This document shows positions 1,863 through 26,440 of a stretch of DNA of 61,437 bases, piece after piece (within the stretch, counting starts at the first letter, position 1; every line of letters begins with the position of its first letter). This stretch comes from Roseateles aquatilis (GTDB taxonomy: Bacteria > Pseudomonadota > Gammaproteobacteria > Burkholderiales > Burkholderiaceae_C). Location of the stretch: the NCBI RefSeq assembly GCF_002205645.1, contig NZ_NIOF01000022.1:1-61437 (forward strand). The letters are read 5' to 3'. The notes beneath the pieces were generated by a model. It searched no databases. It saw nothing but the letters and a program-made list of their open reading frames with translations, and was not told where the DNA came from. Both the position numbers and the translations under genes were made by a program.

Positions 1863-3179
1863 ATGTCCGCCCCCACCGGTCCGTCCATTCGTGCCCGCCT
1901 CATCCTCGTGCTCGGCCTCGCACTGGCGCTGGTGGCCGCGTCGGCCTGGCTGGGCTGGTGGCAATCGCGGCAGGTGGCGCGCATCGCGCAGTCGCTGTAC
2001 ACGGACCGGCTGGTCCCCGTGGACCTGCTGCGCGACCTGGAGCACACGCTGGGCGCGCACCAGCTCGGCACGCTGCTCATCACGCAGGCGACGCAGCCCG
2101 ACGCGGTCAAGTTGGACAGCGCCACCGCCCAGCGCATCGTCGAGGCCACCCGCCAGTCCTGGGACCGCTACATCACCACCCGCATGGTGCCGGCCGAGCG
2201 TGCCCTGATCGCGCGCACCCAGCCCCAGCTGGAGCAGCTCTGGGCCGCCATGGCCGCCTACTCGCCGCCGTCGCCCGAGGCGCTGCGCGACATCAACCAG
2301 CGCCGCCTGGCCGTGATGCGGATGATCGACGAGCTGATGGCATTCCAGCTCCGGCAGGCCAGCATCGACACCGACCGGGCCCAGGAAGCCGCCTCCGACG
2401 CCGCGCGGCGGGGCCTGCTGCTGGTGCTGCTGACGGCGGGCCTGTGCAGCATCGTCGTGCGCACCGTCTGGACGCGCTATGACGAAGAGCGCCGCGCGGG
2501 CCTGGCCTCGCGCGACCGGCTCCAGCAGCTCTACATCGCGCTGTCCCAGAGCAACCAGCTGATCGTGCGCCGCGAGGCCGACGCGCTGCTCGACCCGGCC
2601 GCCGAGCAGCGGCTCTTCGAGGGCATCTGCCGCATCTGCGTGGAGACCGGCCATGCGCGTTTCGCCGCCATCGTGCTGGCCGACGGCGACGAGTTCGAGC
2701 GTGTGGCCGAGCACGGCCCCGGCGATCGCCTGATGCCCGGCGCGCCGAAGCGCTGGTCCAAGGAAGCGCCGTTCGCGCGCAGCTCGATGGCCACGCGCGC
2801 GATCACCAGCGGCGCGCATCAGCTCAGCAACCGGCCGCTGCAGGACCCGAGCCTGGTCGTGCCCGGGGCGCCGGTGATCCCGCCCGGGGTCGAGGCGATG
2901 GCCGCCTTCCCGCTGCGCCGCCGCGGCGAGGTCGTGGGTGCGCTCAGCCTGCTGGCCGGCGAGCCGGACTACTTCGACCCGCAGGTGCTGGGCCTGATGG
3001 ACGAGCTGGCCGGCGACCTGTCCTTCGCGCTCGATCATCTGCGGCGCGAGCGCGACCAGGCCATCGCGCTGGACGACGCCCTGAGCGCGCTGCAGCGCTA
3101 CACCGGCGATTCGCAGATCACCACGCCCGCCGCGTTCCGGCCTGCGGGAGAATCGCCCGATGCAACTCCTGAGCGTTAA
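1863..3179 (+). CDS. Membrane sensor with 4-helix-bundle and GAF domains, no output domain
   Basis: The protein has about 438 residues from the ATG at 1863; an upstream in-frame ATG at 1815 is possible but gives a non-hydrophobic extension. A first membrane segment (ARLILVLGLALALVAASAWL) is followed by a periplasmic helical stretch resembling the 4HB_MCP ligand-binding fold. A second membrane segment (GLLLVLLTAGLCSIVV) and a cytoplasmic GAF-like domain (about residues 240-400) follow. No HAMP, kinase, GGDEF or methyl-accepting signalling domain is visible. The end overlaps the next gene by 20 bp, so the two are probably co-transcribed. It might signal through a partner; ligand unknown. Confidence 0.7.
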   Translation: MSAPTGPSIRARLILVLGLALALVAASAWLGWWQSRQVARIAQSLYTDRLVPVDLLRDLEHTLGAHQLGTLLITQATQPDAVKLDSATAQRIVEATRQSWDRYITTRMVPAERALIARTQPQLEQLWAAMAAYSPPSPEALRDINQRRLAVMRMIDELMAFQLRQASIDTDRAQEAASDAARRGLLLVLLTAGLCSIVVRTVWTRYDEERRAGLASRDRLQQLYIALSQSNQLIVRREADALLDPAAEQRLFEGICRICVETGHARFAAIVLADGDEFERVAEHGPGDRLMPGAPKRWSKEAPFARSSMATRAITSGAHQLSNRPLQDPSLVVPGAPVIPPGVEAMAAFPLRRRGEVVGALSLLAGEPDYFDPQVLGLMDELAGDLSFALDHLRRERDQAIALDDALSALQRYTGDSQITTPAAFRPAGESPDATPER

Positions 3180-10184: not shown

Positions 10185-12113
10185 ATGAGCGAGCCTTCCC
10201 ACACCAGCCAGTTCGCCCTGCTGGGCCAACGCCGCTTCGCGCCCTTCTTCTGGACGCAGTTTCTCGGTGCCGGCAACGACAACCTGTTCAAGTTCGCCTT
10301 CACCGTCCTCGTGACCTACCAGCTCAACGTCAGCTGGCTGCCGGCCGCCCAGGCCGGCCTGGTGATCGGCGCGCTGTTCATCCTGCCGTTCGTGCTGTTC
10401 TCGGCGACCAGCGGCCAGTTGGCCGACAAGTACGACAAGGCGCGGCTGATGCGCCTGGTCAAGACGCTGGAGATCGGCATCATGGCGCTGGCCGCCTACG
10501 GCTTCCACGTGACGAACGTGCCGGTGCTGCTGGGCTGCGTGTTCCTGATGGGACTGCACTCGACGCTGTTCGGGCCGGTCAAGTACGCCTACCTGCCGCA
10601 GCACCTGACCGACCGCGAGATCACCGGCGGCAACGGCATGGTGGAGATGGGCACCTTCGTGGCCATCCTGGTGGGCAACCTGGCCGGCGGCCTGCTGGTG
10701 GCCACGCCCATCGTCGGCGCGCAGCACGTGGCGATCGCCTGCGTCGTCGTGGCCGTGCTGGGCCGGCTGACCGCGCAGGCGCTGCCCGCCAGTCCGTCGA
10801 CCGATCCGGCGCTGGCCATCAACTGGAACCCGGTCACCGAGACCTGGCGCAACCTCAGGCTCGCGCACGAGCAGCTGGCGGTGTTCCGCTCGTTGCTGGG
10901 GATCTCGTGGATGTGGTTCTTCGGCGCGGTGTTCCTGGCCAACTTTCCGGCCTTCGCCAAGGAGGTGCTGCACGGCAACGAACAGGTCGCGTCGCTGCTG
11001 CTGGTGGTGTTCTCGATCGGCATCGGCATCGGCTCGCTGCTGTGCGAGGTGCTGTCGCGGCGCCATGTCGAAATCGGCCTGGTGCCGCTGGGCGCGATCG
11101 GCATGAGCGTGTTCGCGATCGACCTGTACTTCGCCTCGCGCGGGCTGCCGCCGTCGGCCTCGATGGGCGTGGGCAGTTTCCTGGCGCAGCACGCGCACTG
11201 GCGGGTGCTGGCCGACCTGGGCCTGCTGGCGCTGTTCGCCGGCCTGTACAGCGTGCCGATGTACGCGCTCATCCAGATGCGCGCGCAGCCCTCGCACCGC
11301 GCGCGCATCATCGCGGCCAACAACATCCTGAACGCGCTGTTCATGATCGCCAGCTCCGTCCTGGCCGGCGCGATGCTGGGCGCCGGGCTGACCATCCCCG
11401 AGCTGTTCCTGGCCGTCGGCCTGGCCAACGCGGTGGTCGGCCTCTACATCTTCCTGATCGTGCCCGAGTACCTGCTGCGCTTCATCGCCTTCATCGTCTC
11501 GCGCCTGATCTACCGCTTCCGCCTGAGCGGCGACGAGCACATCCCCACGCGGGGCGCCGCGGTGCTGGTCTGCAACCATGTGAGCTTCGTCGACGCGGTG
11601 CTGCTGATGGCGGCCAGCCCGCGGCCGATCCGCTTCCTGATGGACCACCGCATCTTCCGCATCCCCCTGTTGGGCTGGATGTTCCGGCTGGCCAAGGCGA
11701 TCCCGATCGCGCCGCAGAAAGAGGACCCGGCCACCTACGAGGCCGCCTTCAAGGCCGCGCAGGCGGTGCTGGACGACGGCGAGCTGGTGTGCATCTTCCC
11801 CGAGGGCGGGATCACCCGCGACGGCACGCTGCAGCCGTTCAAGGGCGGCGTCATGAAGCTGCTGGAAGATCGTCCGGACCTGCCGGTGGTGCCGCTGGCG
11901 CTGCAGAACCTGTGGGGCTCGTTCTTCTCCCGCGTGGAGCAGGGACAGGCGATGGTGCGGCCGTTCCGGCGCGGGCTGTTCTCACGCGTCGGCCTGGTCG
12001 CCGGCACGCCGATCGCGGCGCGCGACGTGTCGCCGGAACTGCTGCGCGAGCGCGTCGCGGCACTGCTCGGCATGGCCGCGCCCGTGACGCCCGGCGCCCC
12101 GCTCAAGGCTTGA
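10185..12113 (+). CDS. MFS lysophospholipid transporter fused to PlsC acyltransferase
   Basis: About 642 residues from the ATG at 10185. The N-terminal ~410 residues form an LplT-like major-facilitator domain of about 12 helices, beginning RRFAPFFWTQFLGAGNDN. The C-terminal ~200 residues are a PlsC/LPLAT domain with the HX4D motif in CNHVSFVDAVLL, the FPEG motif in CIFPEGGITRDG and the later VVPLAL segment. Known relatives flip lysophospholipids inward and re-acylate them, as the separate LplT and Aas proteins of E. coli do. The AMP-dependent acyl-ACP ligase part found in longer fusions is absent, so the acyl donor must come from elsewhere. Confidence 0.88.
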   Translation: MSEPSHTSQFALLGQRRFAPFFWTQFLGAGNDNLFKFAFTVLVTYQLNVSWLPAAQAGLVIGALFILPFVLFSATSGQLADKYDKARLMRLVKTLEIGIMALAAYGFHVTNVPVLLGCVFLMGLHSTLFGPVKYAYLPQHLTDREITGGNGMVEMGTFVAILVGNLAGGLLVATPIVGAQHVAIACVVVAVLGRLTAQALPASPSTDPALAINWNPVTETWRNLRLAHEQLAVFRSLLGISWMWFFGAVFLANFPAFAKEVLHGNEQVASLLLVVFSIGIGIGSLLCEVLSRRHVEIGLVPLGAIGMSVFAIDLYFASRGLPPSASMGVGSFLAQHAHWRVLADLGLLALFAGLYSVPMYALIQMRAQPSHRARIIAANNILNALFMIASSVLAGAMLGAGLTIPELFLAVGLANAVVGLYIFLIVPEYLLRFIAFIVSRLIYRFRLSGDEHIPTRGAAVLVCNHVSFVDAVLLMAASPRPIRFLMDHRIFRIPLLGWMFRLAKAIPIAPQKEDPATYEAAFKAAQAVLDDGELVCIFPEGGITRDGTLQPFKGGVMKLLEDRPDLPVVPLALQNLWGSFFSRVEQGQAMVRPFRRGLFSRVGLVAGTPIAARDVSPELLRERVAALLGMAAPVTPGAPLKA

Positions 12114-21137: not shown

Positions 21138-21731
21138 ATGCCCCAGAGTCTTTCCGCTCCCGTCCACAGCGAGCTGGTGATCAAGAAGAGCCGCTTCCTC
21201 GGTTGCGTCGAGGCCGTACCGGATCGCGCGGCGGCGCTGGCGCGGGTCGAGCAGCTGCGCGCGCTGCACCCCGGCGCGGCCCATGTCTGTTGGGCGCTGA
21301 TGGCGGGCGGCCAATCCGCCGCCAACGACGACGGCGAGCCCGGCGGCACCGCCGGCCGGCCGATGCTGGAGGTGCTGCGCCACCAGGATCTGGAGGGCGT
21401 GCTGGCCACCGTGGTGCGCTACTTCGGCGGGGTGAAGCTGGGCGCGGGCGGGCTGGTGCGGGCCTACACCGACGCGATCGCGCAGGCGCTGCTGACGGCG
21501 GAGAAGGTGCCGGTGGTGCGCTTGCGGACACTGCGCTGCACGCTGCCCTACGCGCAGGAGGGCCTGCTGCGCCGCGAGGCGCAGCGGGTCGGCGCCGAGC
21601 TGGTCGACGTGACGCACGGCGCGCTGGTGGAAGCGACGCTGCGGCTGCCGGAGACGGCGGCGGACGGCTTCGTCGCGGGGTTGAACGAGGCCGGGCAGGG
21701 GCGGATCGGGTGGTTGCGCGACAGGCCCTGA
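21138..21731 (+). CDS. YigZ/IMPACT-family protein (UPF0029)
   Basis: About 197 residues from the ATG at 21138. Signature segments are IKKSRFLGCVEAVPDRAAAL, the NDDGEPGGTAGRPMLEVL motif and VVRYFGGVKLGAGGLVRAY, followed by the C-terminal DUF1949-like ferredoxin fold. The family is widespread; the bacterial role is poorly defined. It diverges from the hybrid kinase gene across 52 bp. Confidence 0.93.
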   Translation: MPQSLSAPVHSELVIKKSRFLGCVEAVPDRAAALARVEQLRALHPGAAHVCWALMAGGQSAANDDGEPGGTAGRPMLEVLRHQDLEGVLATVVRYFGGVKLGAGGLVRAYTDAIAQALLTAEKVPVVRLRTLRCTLPYAQEGLLRREAQRVGAELVDVTHGALVEATLRLPETAADGFVAGLNEAGQGRIGWLRDRP

Positions 21732-21753: not shown

Positions 21754-22437
21754 TCACAGACCGGTCATCAGCCGGATGCGTTCCAGCACGACGGGTTTCC
21801 TTCCCGCATCGCCGCCGAGCAGCCAGAGCAGTTGATCGTCGAAGGTCGGATCAGCGATCAGCGCCTCGAATTCATCGGCGATGAAGTCACGTGCTTCGCT
21901 CGGCGCCGCCAGCACCTCGGACACGATCTCGGGCCGCCCGTCGATCACGTTGATCACGTCCTCCAGATCATGGTGCAGATAGTCACCGCCACCTCTTGAT
22001 CGGAACGCCTCGAGCTTGGTGGCCAGGAACATCGGTGCGGCGATGACACGGATCGTTCCGCCGCCGGGCAGCTGACGCGCCATCGCGGTCCTTGCGGCCA
22101 GGGCGTACCAACTGTTGGTGAAGTTCAGGATCCCCTCTTCGGTGGGCATGATGTCCACGATCGTGCCGCCCAGGTGCCACCGACAGATCACCTCCGCATC
22201 CGCCGACTCGCGGAACCCGCGCTGCTTGAGCCGCTCGCAGAACTCGTAGTACGACGCCCTAGGCGTCACTTCGGTCACCAGATCGACGTCCAATGTCGCG
22301 CGCACCACCGGCCGCGCGGCATCGGTGATGAGCATCCCCGTCGCGCAACCTCCGACGAGGATCACCTCGTCGACCAGAGCGCCCAGGGCATGGGCGACCA
22401 ACTCGACGCCCGGGAGGTTCGGATCATCGTGCCTCAT
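21754..22437 (-). CDS. AbiEii-like nucleotidyltransferase (candidate toxin)
   Basis: About 227 residues. It carries a minimal nucleotidyltransferase core: GG in VILVGGCATGMLIT, the D-x-D metal pair in RATLDVDLVTE, a later acidic residue in IVDIMPTEEG, and the AbiEii-like downstream elements FLATKLEAF and DLEDVINVIDGR. AbiEii/MenT-type enzymes modify tRNA or other targets and act as toxins. Its ATG overlaps the stop of the upstream winged-helix gene by 4 bp (ATGA). It sits in an accessory patch between housekeeping genes. Toxin activity is inference. Confidence 0.75.
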   Translation of the reverse strand: MRHDDPNLPGVELVAHALGALVDEVILVGGCATGMLITDAARPVVRATLDVDLVTEVTPRASYYEFCERLKQRGFRESADAEVICRWHLGGTIVDIMPTEEGILNFTNSWYALAARTAMARQLPGGGTIRVIAAPMFLATKLEAFRSRGGGDYLHHDLEDVINVIDGRPEIVSEVLAAPSEARDFIADEFEALIADPTFDDQLLWLLGGDAGRKPVVLERIRLMTGL

Positions 22438-23021
22438 GCGAAGTAGCGGGGCAGGTGCTGATGAGCCAGCTCGCGTTCCCGCGACGCCCCCGCGCGGATG
22501 GCATCGATCAGGGCCATCACTTCGTAAAGACGCCGATCGCGCCTGGCGGCCTCTGGCACGGTCGGGTACAGCGGACACAGCGCGATGCCCCGCGTCGTGC
22601 CGTCCTTGTCGGGCCAGACCACGCGCAGATCGTCCGCGGCGGCGAACGCCGCGGCCAACGGCGGCGCCGATCCTGCCGTCGGGCAGCCCGTCGTCACCGG
22701 GCCGAAGACTGGCGGGAACGCGTACTTGAGCCCATGGACGATGAACTCCATCAGCGCCACGCGATTCGCGCGCAGCTCCCCGAACTCCCGCACCAAAAGG
22801 CCCGAGGCCTGGCCGCGTTGCACCGACGCATGGGCCTCGGAGGCGGACAGGTTCAAGCTGGCGGCCAACGTCGCGAAGGTCAGGCTATCGCCCGCCGTGG
22901 CCATCGCCACCCGACCCGCCATCAGGAGGTCTTGCGGCTTCAGGGCCGTCTGCTTCAACTGAACCGGTGCATGCCTCACGACGTTCGGGATTCGGAAATA
23001 GAGAATGACCGATCGTCGCAT
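22434..23021 (-). CDS. Winged-helix protein coupled to the nucleotidyltransferase (candidate antitoxin/regulator)
   Basis: About 195 residues from the ATG at 23021 (a GTG at 23024 is adjacent). An HTH-like stretch is visible around TFATLAASLNLSASEAHASV, followed by GLLVREFGELRANRVALMEF. The rest has no recognised domain. It is not a textbook AbiEi antitoxin but occupies the antitoxin position: first gene, DNA-binding, with a 4-bp overlap to the transferase. A perfect palindrome sits 104 bp upstream. Confidence 0.65.
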   Translation of the reverse strand: MRRSVILYFRIPNVVRHAPVQLKQTALKPQDLLMAGRVAMATAGDSLTFATLAASLNLSASEAHASVQRGQASGLLVREFGELRANRVALMEFIVHGLKYAFPPVFGPVTTGCPTAGSAPPLAAAFAAADDLRVVWPDKDGTTRGIALCPLYPTVPEAARRDRRLYEVMALIDAIRAGASRERELAHQHLPRYFA

Positions 23022-23213
23022 CACGGACCTAGAGAGGCAAGCCCGACGAATACGGGGATTCGATGCCTCGTGGAGGCCATGCGTTCCCCATTCCCGAATG
23101 ACGAATGTGCGATGGATGCCTTAATTATTCTAAATTTAGAATAAATTGCAGTTGAAATGCAAAATCCGTTGGTTTAATCTCGATACGTCAAGTTTAAGCA
23201 GGACGGCGGTGCC
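23022..23213. promoter_or_regulatory. AT-rich divergent promoter with 20-bp perfect palindrome
   Basis: This intergenic region is markedly AT-richer than its surroundings. At 23125-23144 lies TTATTCTAAATTTAGAATAA, a perfect 20-bp palindrome. It stands between the winged-helix/transferase pair and the divergent gene at 23214. It is a good operator candidate for autoregulation by the winged-helix protein. Confidence 0.6.
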
Positions 23214-23948
23214 ATGCAGGTGATTCGCAGGAGAAGTCCCCGAGGCCCGACCATGCCGTTGGACGAAGCCATCGAACGGGTCGGCACCGCCCTCGAGCGC
23301 CAACAGCTGGAGGCTGCCTCGACGGAAGTCGTCGCGCAGCATCTGGGCTACAAGTCCGCCAACAGCGGCACCGCGCTGTCCGCCATCGCCAGCCTGAGGT
23401 ACTTCGGGCTGCTGGACCGTCCCGAGGACGGCATGCTCGCCGTCACCCCGGCTTTCAAAGAGTTCCGCTTCAACCCAGACGAGCACCAACGACGAGAACT
23501 GCTGATCCGGTTCCTGCGAACGCCTCCCCTCTTCGCGGAACTGCTCGATCTCTACGTCGGCGGCCTGCCGTCGGATGCGAATCTGCGATATGAGCTGATC
23601 CAACGCGGCTTCCTGCCATCGGCAGCCGAGGCCTGCGCGACTGTCTTTCGCAGGTCCGTGGAATGGGTGGACTATTTCCGCCCCCAGCGGGAGAACGGAT
23701 CGCCGGCTCCGGCGTCGTCGCCAATGGTCACCCCGCTCCCGGGCAATGGCGCGGCAAGCGCCCCGCCCCTGGAAGCCCCGGCCGCCATCGCCTCCACGTC
23801 GGACGCCGACGCCATCCCCGTGCGGCTGTCGGGGGGGCGTCGCGCCTGGATCGTGGTGCCGCCCCGACTCTTCGAGGCGGACAAGCTGCGTCTCAAGGCC
23901 CAGATCGATCTGCTGTTGACGGTCGAGCAGGAGACGGGCGAGGCCTGA
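23214..23948 (+). CDS. Uncharacterised winged-helix-like protein, divergent from the NTase pair
   Basis: 244 residues (or 231 from the ATG at 23253, which has GAGG 7 nt upstream). The first ~150 residues are helical, and LDEAIERVGTALERQQLEAA with HLGYKSANSGTALSAIASLR, then YFGLL, look like a winged-helix fold resembling DUF5343-type proteins. A Pro/Ala-rich linker follows, then a C-terminal segment GGRRAWIVVPPRLFEADKLR with a possible coiled helix. No catalytic motif is seen. It probably belongs to the same accessory module as the divergent pair. Confidence 0.6.
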   Translation: MQVIRRRSPRGPTMPLDEAIERVGTALERQQLEAASTEVVAQHLGYKSANSGTALSAIASLRYFGLLDRPEDGMLAVTPAFKEFRFNPDEHQRRELLIRFLRTPPLFAELLDLYVGGLPSDANLRYELIQRGFLPSAAEACATVFRRSVEWVDYFRPQRENGSPAPASSPMVTPLPGNGAASAPPLEAPAAIASTSDADAIPVRLSGGRRAWIVVPPRLFEADKLRLKAQIDLLLTVEQETGEA

Positions 23949-24048: not shown

Positions 24049-25437
<1,389 letters not shown>

Positions 25438-25572: not shown

Positions 25573-26250
25573 TCAGCGGCGGCGACGGCGGGCGATGAAG
25601 CCCAGGGCGCCCAGGCCGGCCAGCATCAGCGCGTAGGTCTCCGGCTCCGGCACGGCGGAGGTCAGCGCGGTGACGTTGGAGCTGAGGAACTCGGTGCGCA
25701 GGCCGGTGAAGTTGTAGCCGGCGGTCGCGGTGTTGTTGACGATGAACTCCAGGGTGTTCACGCCGGCCACGAAGCCGCTGCTGGCCGCGAAGGTGGTCCA
25801 GTCGAGGTAGCCCTTCTCCGCGCCCATCGTCGAGATGACGTTGCCGTTCAGCAGCACCGTGCCGTTGTTGTCCGCCGACCAGCGGCCGGTGAACGAGGCG
25901 GTGCTGGCGTTGAAACCGGTCAGGTCGAAGGTCAGCGTCCACTTGAACACGCCGGCCGTCGAGCCGGTGTCGAAGACGTCGCTCTGCGTCGCGGTCGGGA
26001 CCAGCCAGGACGAGGTGGCGGAGTTCGCGATCCAGTTCGGGAACGGCGCATCGTTGCCGTTGGTGACGTAGCCGTGGCCAGACAGGCCGGTCGAATCGCC
26101 CGCGATCGCCGCGAACGAGTAATGCCCGTCGGCGCTGCCGGCGCCCAGGCCGCTGCCGGTGTTGACCAGGCCGCCGATGGTGGCGGCCGAGGCCAGGCCG
26201 CTGACCAGCGCGGCGGCGACAGCGATCGAGGTACGGGCAAGCAGCGTCAT
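25573..26250 (-). CDS. PEP-CTERM sorting-domain protein
   Basis: About 225 residues from the ATG at 26250; a longer frame adds a non-signal extension. The N-terminal signal TSIAVAAALVSGLASAA precedes a beta-rich secreted body, and the C-terminus has the full PEP-CTERM tripartite signal: VPEPETYALML, a hydrophobic helix GLGALGFIA and a basic tail RRRRR. Such proteins are cleaved by an exosortase and exported, often with exopolysaccharide. No exosortase is in this window. Specific role unknown. Confidence 0.85.
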   Translation of the reverse strand: MTLLARTSIAVAAALVSGLASAATIGGLVNTGSGLGAGSADGHYSFAAIAGDSTGLSGHGYVTNGNDAPFPNWIANSATSSWLVPTATQSDVFDTGSTAGVFKWTLTFDLTGFNASTASFTGRWSADNNGTVLLNGNVISTMGAEKGYLDWTTFAASSGFVAGVNTLEFIVNNTATAGYNFTGLRTEFLSSNVTALTSAVPEPETYALMLAGLGALGFIARRRRR

Positions 26251-26440
26251 GTCGATTCCCGATGGAAAGGTGAATGCGGGGTGAGAGGCACGTCCCGTCG
26301 GTATTTTTTTCCGATCGTGGCCGTCGCGCGGAGCGCGCCGACACGGATAGCAGGATTCGGGCCTTGTGCGGTCCATTGTCCCTAAACCAGGCGGCCGGCA
26401 GTCCCCCATGGGCGCGGGGGTCTGTGGCGTGCGTGCCGAT

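Follow-up and report, generated by a model that had tools for sequence, protein, structure and literature searches.

A predicted AbiE/MenAT-like toxin-antitoxin pair with a group-specific third gene in Roseateles aquatilis

AbiE systems consist of a two-gene operon in which the transferase has a winged-helix partner, and in omega-epsilon-zeta and PaaR-PaaA-ParE an extra DNA-binding gene stands beside the toxin-antitoxin pair. AbiE has been described as the fourth most abundant phage-defense system, and unrelated kinds of antitoxin hold such transferases in check (excerpt of PMC11375011). Inverted repeats control AbiE and a relative (excerpts of PMC3985639 and PMC7319586), and Thr39 of MenT1 is the auto-phosphorylated residue (excerpts of PMC10435456 and PMC11375011). 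Here, we report a block of three genes (A, B, and C) at positions 21754 to 23948 of a stretch of Roseateles aquatilis DNA, the whole of which is called the window (61,437 nucleotides, forward strand of contig NZ_NIOF01000022.1, RefSeq assembly GCF_002205645.1). Genes A and B are ordered as in AbiE, and C diverges from A. Our favored explanation, held with moderate confidence, is an AbiE/MenAT-like toxin-antitoxin module that moves horizontally and has gained a clade-specific third gene.

A first, sequence-only reading had proposed an unrecognized toxin-antitoxin or defense module. Both models of PDC-M21 (PADLOC-DB 2.0.0) match the adjacent genes A and B strongly (PDC-M21A, E value of 7.8e-43; PDC-M21B, 1.1e-67); the pair is therefore not unrecognized, although the library gives PDC-M21 no description. 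C matched no PADLOC model, nor did five further C or C-like proteins. What the present analysis adds to the listed A-B core, with its unusual antitoxin, is the third component and the operator code. Searches of the open-licence literature, preprints excluded, found no paper on "PDC-M21," on an A-B-C module, or on DUF5343, and PMC2701414 makes no mention of COG2253, COG5340, MarR, or AbiE. The features of the block are as follows.

21754 to 22437, minus strand: gene B, AbiEii/MenT-like nucleotidyltransferase, predicted toxin, 227 amino acids (motifs G29-G30, R46-x-T48-x-D50-V-D52, D95, KLEAFRSR at 141 to 148, and D157-x-x-D160)
22434 to 22979, minus strand: gene A, predicted antitoxin/autorepressor of 181 amino acids, a winged-helix (MarR_2-like) protein whose C-terminal domain is conserved
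22984 to 23005, minus strand: proximal operator dyad of A, three of four triplets, immediately upstream of the putative GTG start
23084 to 23105, strand not applicable: distal operator dyad, full TTC-N4-TTC-N2-GAA-N4-GAA, between the starts of A and C
23125 to 23144, strand not applicable: perfect 20-bp palindrome TTATTCTAAATTTAGAATAA, preceding C
23214 to 23948, plus strand: gene C, third component, 244 amino acids (predicted winged-helix/helical domain at about residues 10 to 156, low-confidence linker at about 160 to 198, C-terminal beta-beta-alpha element at 199 to 240)

Relatives reported by the protein searches at E ≤ 0.001 numbered 2139 for B, 959 for C, and 174 for A, and the best 120 of each were listed (those of B including the window's own sequence). 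Residues G29, G30, R46, T48, D50, D52, D95, K141, R148, D157, and D160 were identical in all 120 B sequences listed. B carries AbiEii/DUF1814 motifs I and II (hG[G/S]...DhD, with the motif II Arg) and motif III (KLxAaxxR), the latter as KLEAFRSR at 141 to 148, where K141, F145, and R148 were found in 120/120, Leu at position 142 in 100, and Ala or Ser at position 144 in 76 and 44, respectively. In motif IV, D157 and D160 were kept in 120/120, and the first position was His in 115 and never K/R. The GG and D-x-D motifs that the earlier reading had pointed out (G29-G30 and D50-x-D52) are thus among the invariant residues, and its assignment of B as an AbiEii-like transferase stands, with motifs I to III present and the motif IV aspartates retained. 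The window's B had no match to Pfam AbiEii (PF08843) at E ≤ 10; 20 of the 38 members of its alignment matched that family at E ≤ 1 (best, 2.3e-6).

As far as the excerpt of PMC3985639 describes AbiE, the likeness lies in the DUF1814 transferase with motifs I to III and DxxD and in the promoter inverted repeats; the differences are that A has no AbiEi Pfam match, that motifs I and II of B are separated by x19 rather than x15, that motif IV of B has His where K/R is described, and that one group carries a divergent third gene. The structure of B was predicted confidently, with MenT1 as its closest fold and equivalents of T39, D41, D43, and K137 by motif (excerpts of PMC10435456 and PMC11375011); identity to MenT1 in the structural alignment was only 22%. 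T48, D50, K141, and D157/D160 are candidate equivalents, assigned by motif, of MenT T39, D41, K137, and D152, and invariant Thr48 lies as far from the first catalytic Asp as Thr39 does in MenT1. An absent catalytic geometry, which would have counted against the first reading, is not suggested by this confident MenT-like model, in which active-site coordinates were not superposed. From family resemblance B is a predicted toxin, and its target, by analogy with MenT, would most likely be tRNA acceptor ends. One locus (L050) has two B copies close by (222 to 917 and 2354 to 3040).

Gene A lay directly upstream of B in 80/80 loci, these being the best 80, and so the near part of the family, of at least 555 relatives confirmed in a scan of named genomes with the B alignment. 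Its sole Pfam match at E ≤ 10 was MarR_2 (3.1e-4, below the family cut-off), no AbiEi family was among the matches listed (25 of 34) for 38 A members, and a comparison with three AbiEi-like neighbors, a weak test, gave no profile match. A was accordingly rejected as a classical AbiEi (COG5340-type), having neither Pfam nor profile support, and agrees with its first description as a winged-helix partner lacking an AbiEi signature. Family resemblance suggests that A is the antitoxin of B. In contrast to omega-epsilon-zeta and PaaR-PaaA-ParE, the pair here already includes, in A, a DNA-binding domain with an operator to match, which would make C an addition.

The stop codon of A (TGA) lies inside the ATGA at 22434 to 22437 that holds the ATG of B (TACTTCGCATGAGGCACGAT). 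All three open reading frames (ORFs) and this overlap were present as first claimed, and only the start of A was corrected: the 196-amino-acid ORF (to 23024) is over-extended, and the GTG at 22979 (181 amino acids), which we infer to be the start, fits both the homologues (P0245 begins MRHAPIQ) and the position of the operator. The start of C at 23214 is backed by the family alignment (M1 invariant, 32 rows). Database entries are shorter for all three proteins (B, P0004, 215 amino acids; C, P0124, 231; A, P0244, 174). A promoter/terminator scan found none.

The 22-bp dyad TTC-N4-TTC-N2-GAA-N4-GAA was sought within 330 bp upstream of A at 81 loci (19 C-bearing, window included, and 62 others). 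At least three of its four triplets were found at 69/81 loci, against 0.4 in shuffles; these comprised 19/19 C-bearing loci and 50/62 others (mononucleotide shuffles, 0.14 and 0.29 loci), and all four triplets were found at 17/19 and 42/62 (shuffles, 0.00). Two or more matches were found at 15/19 C-bearing loci and at 30/62 others, some of the latter overlapping, and 12/62 C-less loci had no dyad. The window's two dyads (22984 to 23005 and 23084 to 23105) are the only ones in 61 kb, and the whole genome (6.39 Mb) has two perfect dyads, of which the distal dyad is one. Because C-less loci also carry the dyad, the protein that binds it is likely to be A and not C.

Covariation was read from the 62/81 loci with the shorter pattern TTC-N2-GAA-N4-GAA. 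The center of the site nearest A varied with residue 63 of A (P0002 numbering), with Glu63 accompanying a GC center in 34/36 cases and other residues accompanying non-GC centers in 22/26; this column had the highest mutual information among those tested (0.68 bits; next, 0.42) and stands next to the nearly invariant Ser62 and near His65 (invariant in the 38-row alignment). Kinship lessens the weight of the covariation, leaving four independent pairs on supported branches, 0 contrary, with a median p of 0.125. Since the dyad center covaries with a recognition-helix residue of A, A is probably an autorepressor acting through its own dyads. The A-C gap is AT-rich (GC content of 0.586 and 0.580 in two 500-base windows, versus 0.73 to 0.76 over yigZ) and, with its conserved dyads, supports the operator region first placed there. 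A further element, GTATAA/TTATAC, was found upstream of C in 12/19 C-bearing loci (2.4 expected), in some as an inverted repeat with 6-bp spacing; a good paired repeat (at least 10/12) was found in 11/19 loci, not including the window, versus 16% of shuffled sequences. One possibility is that this element is another operator, perhaps that of C itself.

C adjoined A in 18/80 loci, 17 divergent and 1 tandem (L003). On a tree of B (80 rows including the window; L049, with a split B, left out), C was found in 19/20 rows of one group (support 100/98) and 0/60 elsewhere, the one C-less row of the group being a Rhizobacter (L027), and its presence took two changes, against 17 with shuffled labels. 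The tree was midpoint-rooted for drawing; assuming a root outside the group, C would have been gained once by one B group and lost once.

C was also searched for in order, family, and class samples (399, 399, and 369 genomes) and in viral contigs. Matches were found in 5/399, 8/399, and 3/369 genomes, respectively (own genome recurring, weak matches included), and at one viral locus. Six of the nine distinct strong matches (E below 1e-35) had A-B beside them (own, L116, L117, L119, L124, and L126), and three did not (L082 and L083, both near-complete; L084, truncated). The genome search counted one stop codon within the match in L117, one in L083, and two in L084; nearly the whole C profile is nevertheless spanned by one open frame in both L117 and L083. 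In L123 (E value of 5.3e-11), adjacent pieces of B and C remain from the block. No A-B was found in the 2.4 to 18 kb examined around five weaker C-like matches (L085, L120, L121, L122, and L125; E values of 2e-13 to 2e-26). Larger regions around three of these five (L127 to L129) were read for neighbors only; one holds a distant solitary C-like gene (L128, 6652 to 7656) about 600 bp downstream of a gene that by eye is glmS-like. Tn7-type elements frequently use the region downstream of glmS. In the order sample, B was found in 34/399 genomes and C in 5, both only in the window's own, which argues against an obligate tie between A-B and C; the tie is group-specific.

The survey contradicts the possibility, raised beforehand, that the genes do not co-occur elsewhere (18/80 loci; 6/9 strong C matches). 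The third component recurs beside A-B as supposed, yet it is not general, being confined to one B group. No other recurrent neighbor came near the frequency of C among the 25 clusters listed, antisense frames over A-B aside. By eye, a metallophosphoesterase-like gene lies downstream of B in 5/80 loci (L037, L040, L056, and L070, which are Legionella, and L078) and may serve as an alternative accessory gene in other parts of the family; a type I methylase-like cluster was seen, also by eye, in 7/80 loci.

The leading rival, which we consider doubtful, is a plain two-gene A-B toxin-antitoxin system with C as a passenger, captured once and inherited by linkage with no functional tie. C is missing from 61/80 tree rows and from 33/34 B-bearing genomes of the order sample, and it exists without A-B (L082 and L083), as a passenger might; however, the group has kept it even though its B proteins are only 45 to 59% identical to the window's B, it always adjoins A there, divergent across the operator region in all C loci but one, and neutral linkage would be expected to break more often.

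The module appears to be mobile, judging from its insertion site and from its occurrence on other replicons. The flanking genes, named in the first reading and by eye, are as follows.

21138 to 21731, plus strand: yigZ, left flanking housekeeping gene
24097 to 25437, plus strand: argG, right flanking housekeeping gene

The block interrupts these housekeeping genes, as first noted: yigZ stands directly before argG, with the block absent, in 14/15 other genomes of the genus, and the fifteenth (L091) has no yigZ in the stretch examined. The yigZ-argG gap is about 100 to 250 bp in 12 of the 14 and 721 and 903 bp in two (L088 and L089), which may hold other inserts at the same site. B was found in 4/16 genomes of the genus; within 1.5 kb of the three copies outside the window, A is present and C absent, and one of these copies shares coordinates with a plasmid match in Mitsuaria sp. 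7. Among plasmid records, B was found on 114 and C on one. A viral contig (L126) carries a complete A-B-C block among terminase, endolysin, DNA methyltransferase, anti-repressor, and helicase-loader genes, between the DNA methyltransferase/lysis genes and the anti-repressor/replication genes. A scan of viral contigs for B confirmed 0/23 pattern matches and missed L126, which came to light through C and holds B; B had no match in phage records, and a PHROGs search with A, B, and C gave no significant match. Several B copies of the order sample were split (G145, G261, G349, and G357), partial, or interrupted by an in-frame stop (G203). Elsewhere in the window, Rfam matched Bcj11 (Burkholderia RNA 11) at 10849 to 10970 (90.3 bits), and a protein at 25573 to 26409 has, by eye, a PEP-CTERM-like tail (VPEPETYALMLAGLGALGFIARRRRR). 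ARAGORN called a 91-base tRNA-Trp at 25162 to 25252, antisense within argG, probably a false positive because no tRNA appears in an Rfam scan at gathering scores.

Structure prediction of 23214 to 23948, proposed at the outset as a check, returned the winged-helix/helical N-terminal domain, and the best structural matches of the model include the recognition domains of FokI, BspD6I, and BpuJI. Similarity of residues of about 10 to 156 to the FokI and BspD6I folds is weak and borderline, and the model differs from these enzymes in lacking a nuclease domain. C is probably a DNA-binding protein. C had no Pfam match; one record is named as a DUF5343 protein (P0204), yet without that Pfam match the name was not adopted. 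The reading of C as a phage protein was likewise rejected, as C had no match in 50,697 phage records or to viral folds (E ≤ 0.001) and occurred on one viral contig only.

A special case of our favored explanation, unlikely in our judgment, makes C a sensor in a sensor-antitoxin-toxin defense: its nuclease-free FokI-like domain would recognize foreign DNA or a DNA state, and its C-terminal part would then release or activate the transferase. The structural matches, the two-part layout with its low-confidence linker, and the block among phage genes are consistent with it. Its fuller form, in which C detects invading or altered DNA and frees a tRNA-modifying transferase through the operator region or contact with A, is quite unlikely. 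That B is a small-molecule nucleotidyltransferase (e.g., aminoglycoside-modifying) and A an ordinary MarR-type regulator is very improbable, B as a housekeeping or resistance transferase having been judged less likely.

Under the favored toxin-antitoxin explanation, B, a pol-beta-type nucleotidyltransferase toxin by analogy, would add nucleotides to tRNA acceptor ends and stop translation. Through its winged helix, A would bind the pair of 22-bp dyads that precede its start; neutralization of B would fall to the conserved C-terminal domain of A and may act through invariant Thr48. C would be transcribed away from the shared control region; because the distal dyad stands between the starts of A and C, A probably also controls C, perhaps repressing it through that dyad. 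Most likely, C would in turn tune or trigger A-B expression by DNA binding. The likely outcome would be growth arrest upon phage infection or loss of the module, and the module may serve in phage defense.

These results offer a testable mechanism for PDC-M21, and the A-B family contributes a candidate antitoxin that is MarR-like and whose operator code can be read. Should the tripartite reading be true, a self-contained toxin-antitoxin pair would have become, in one group, an immune module triggered by DNA. The gain and single loss of C, which can be placed on the tree, would provide a natural experiment in how a two-gene toxin-antitoxin system acquires a new input.
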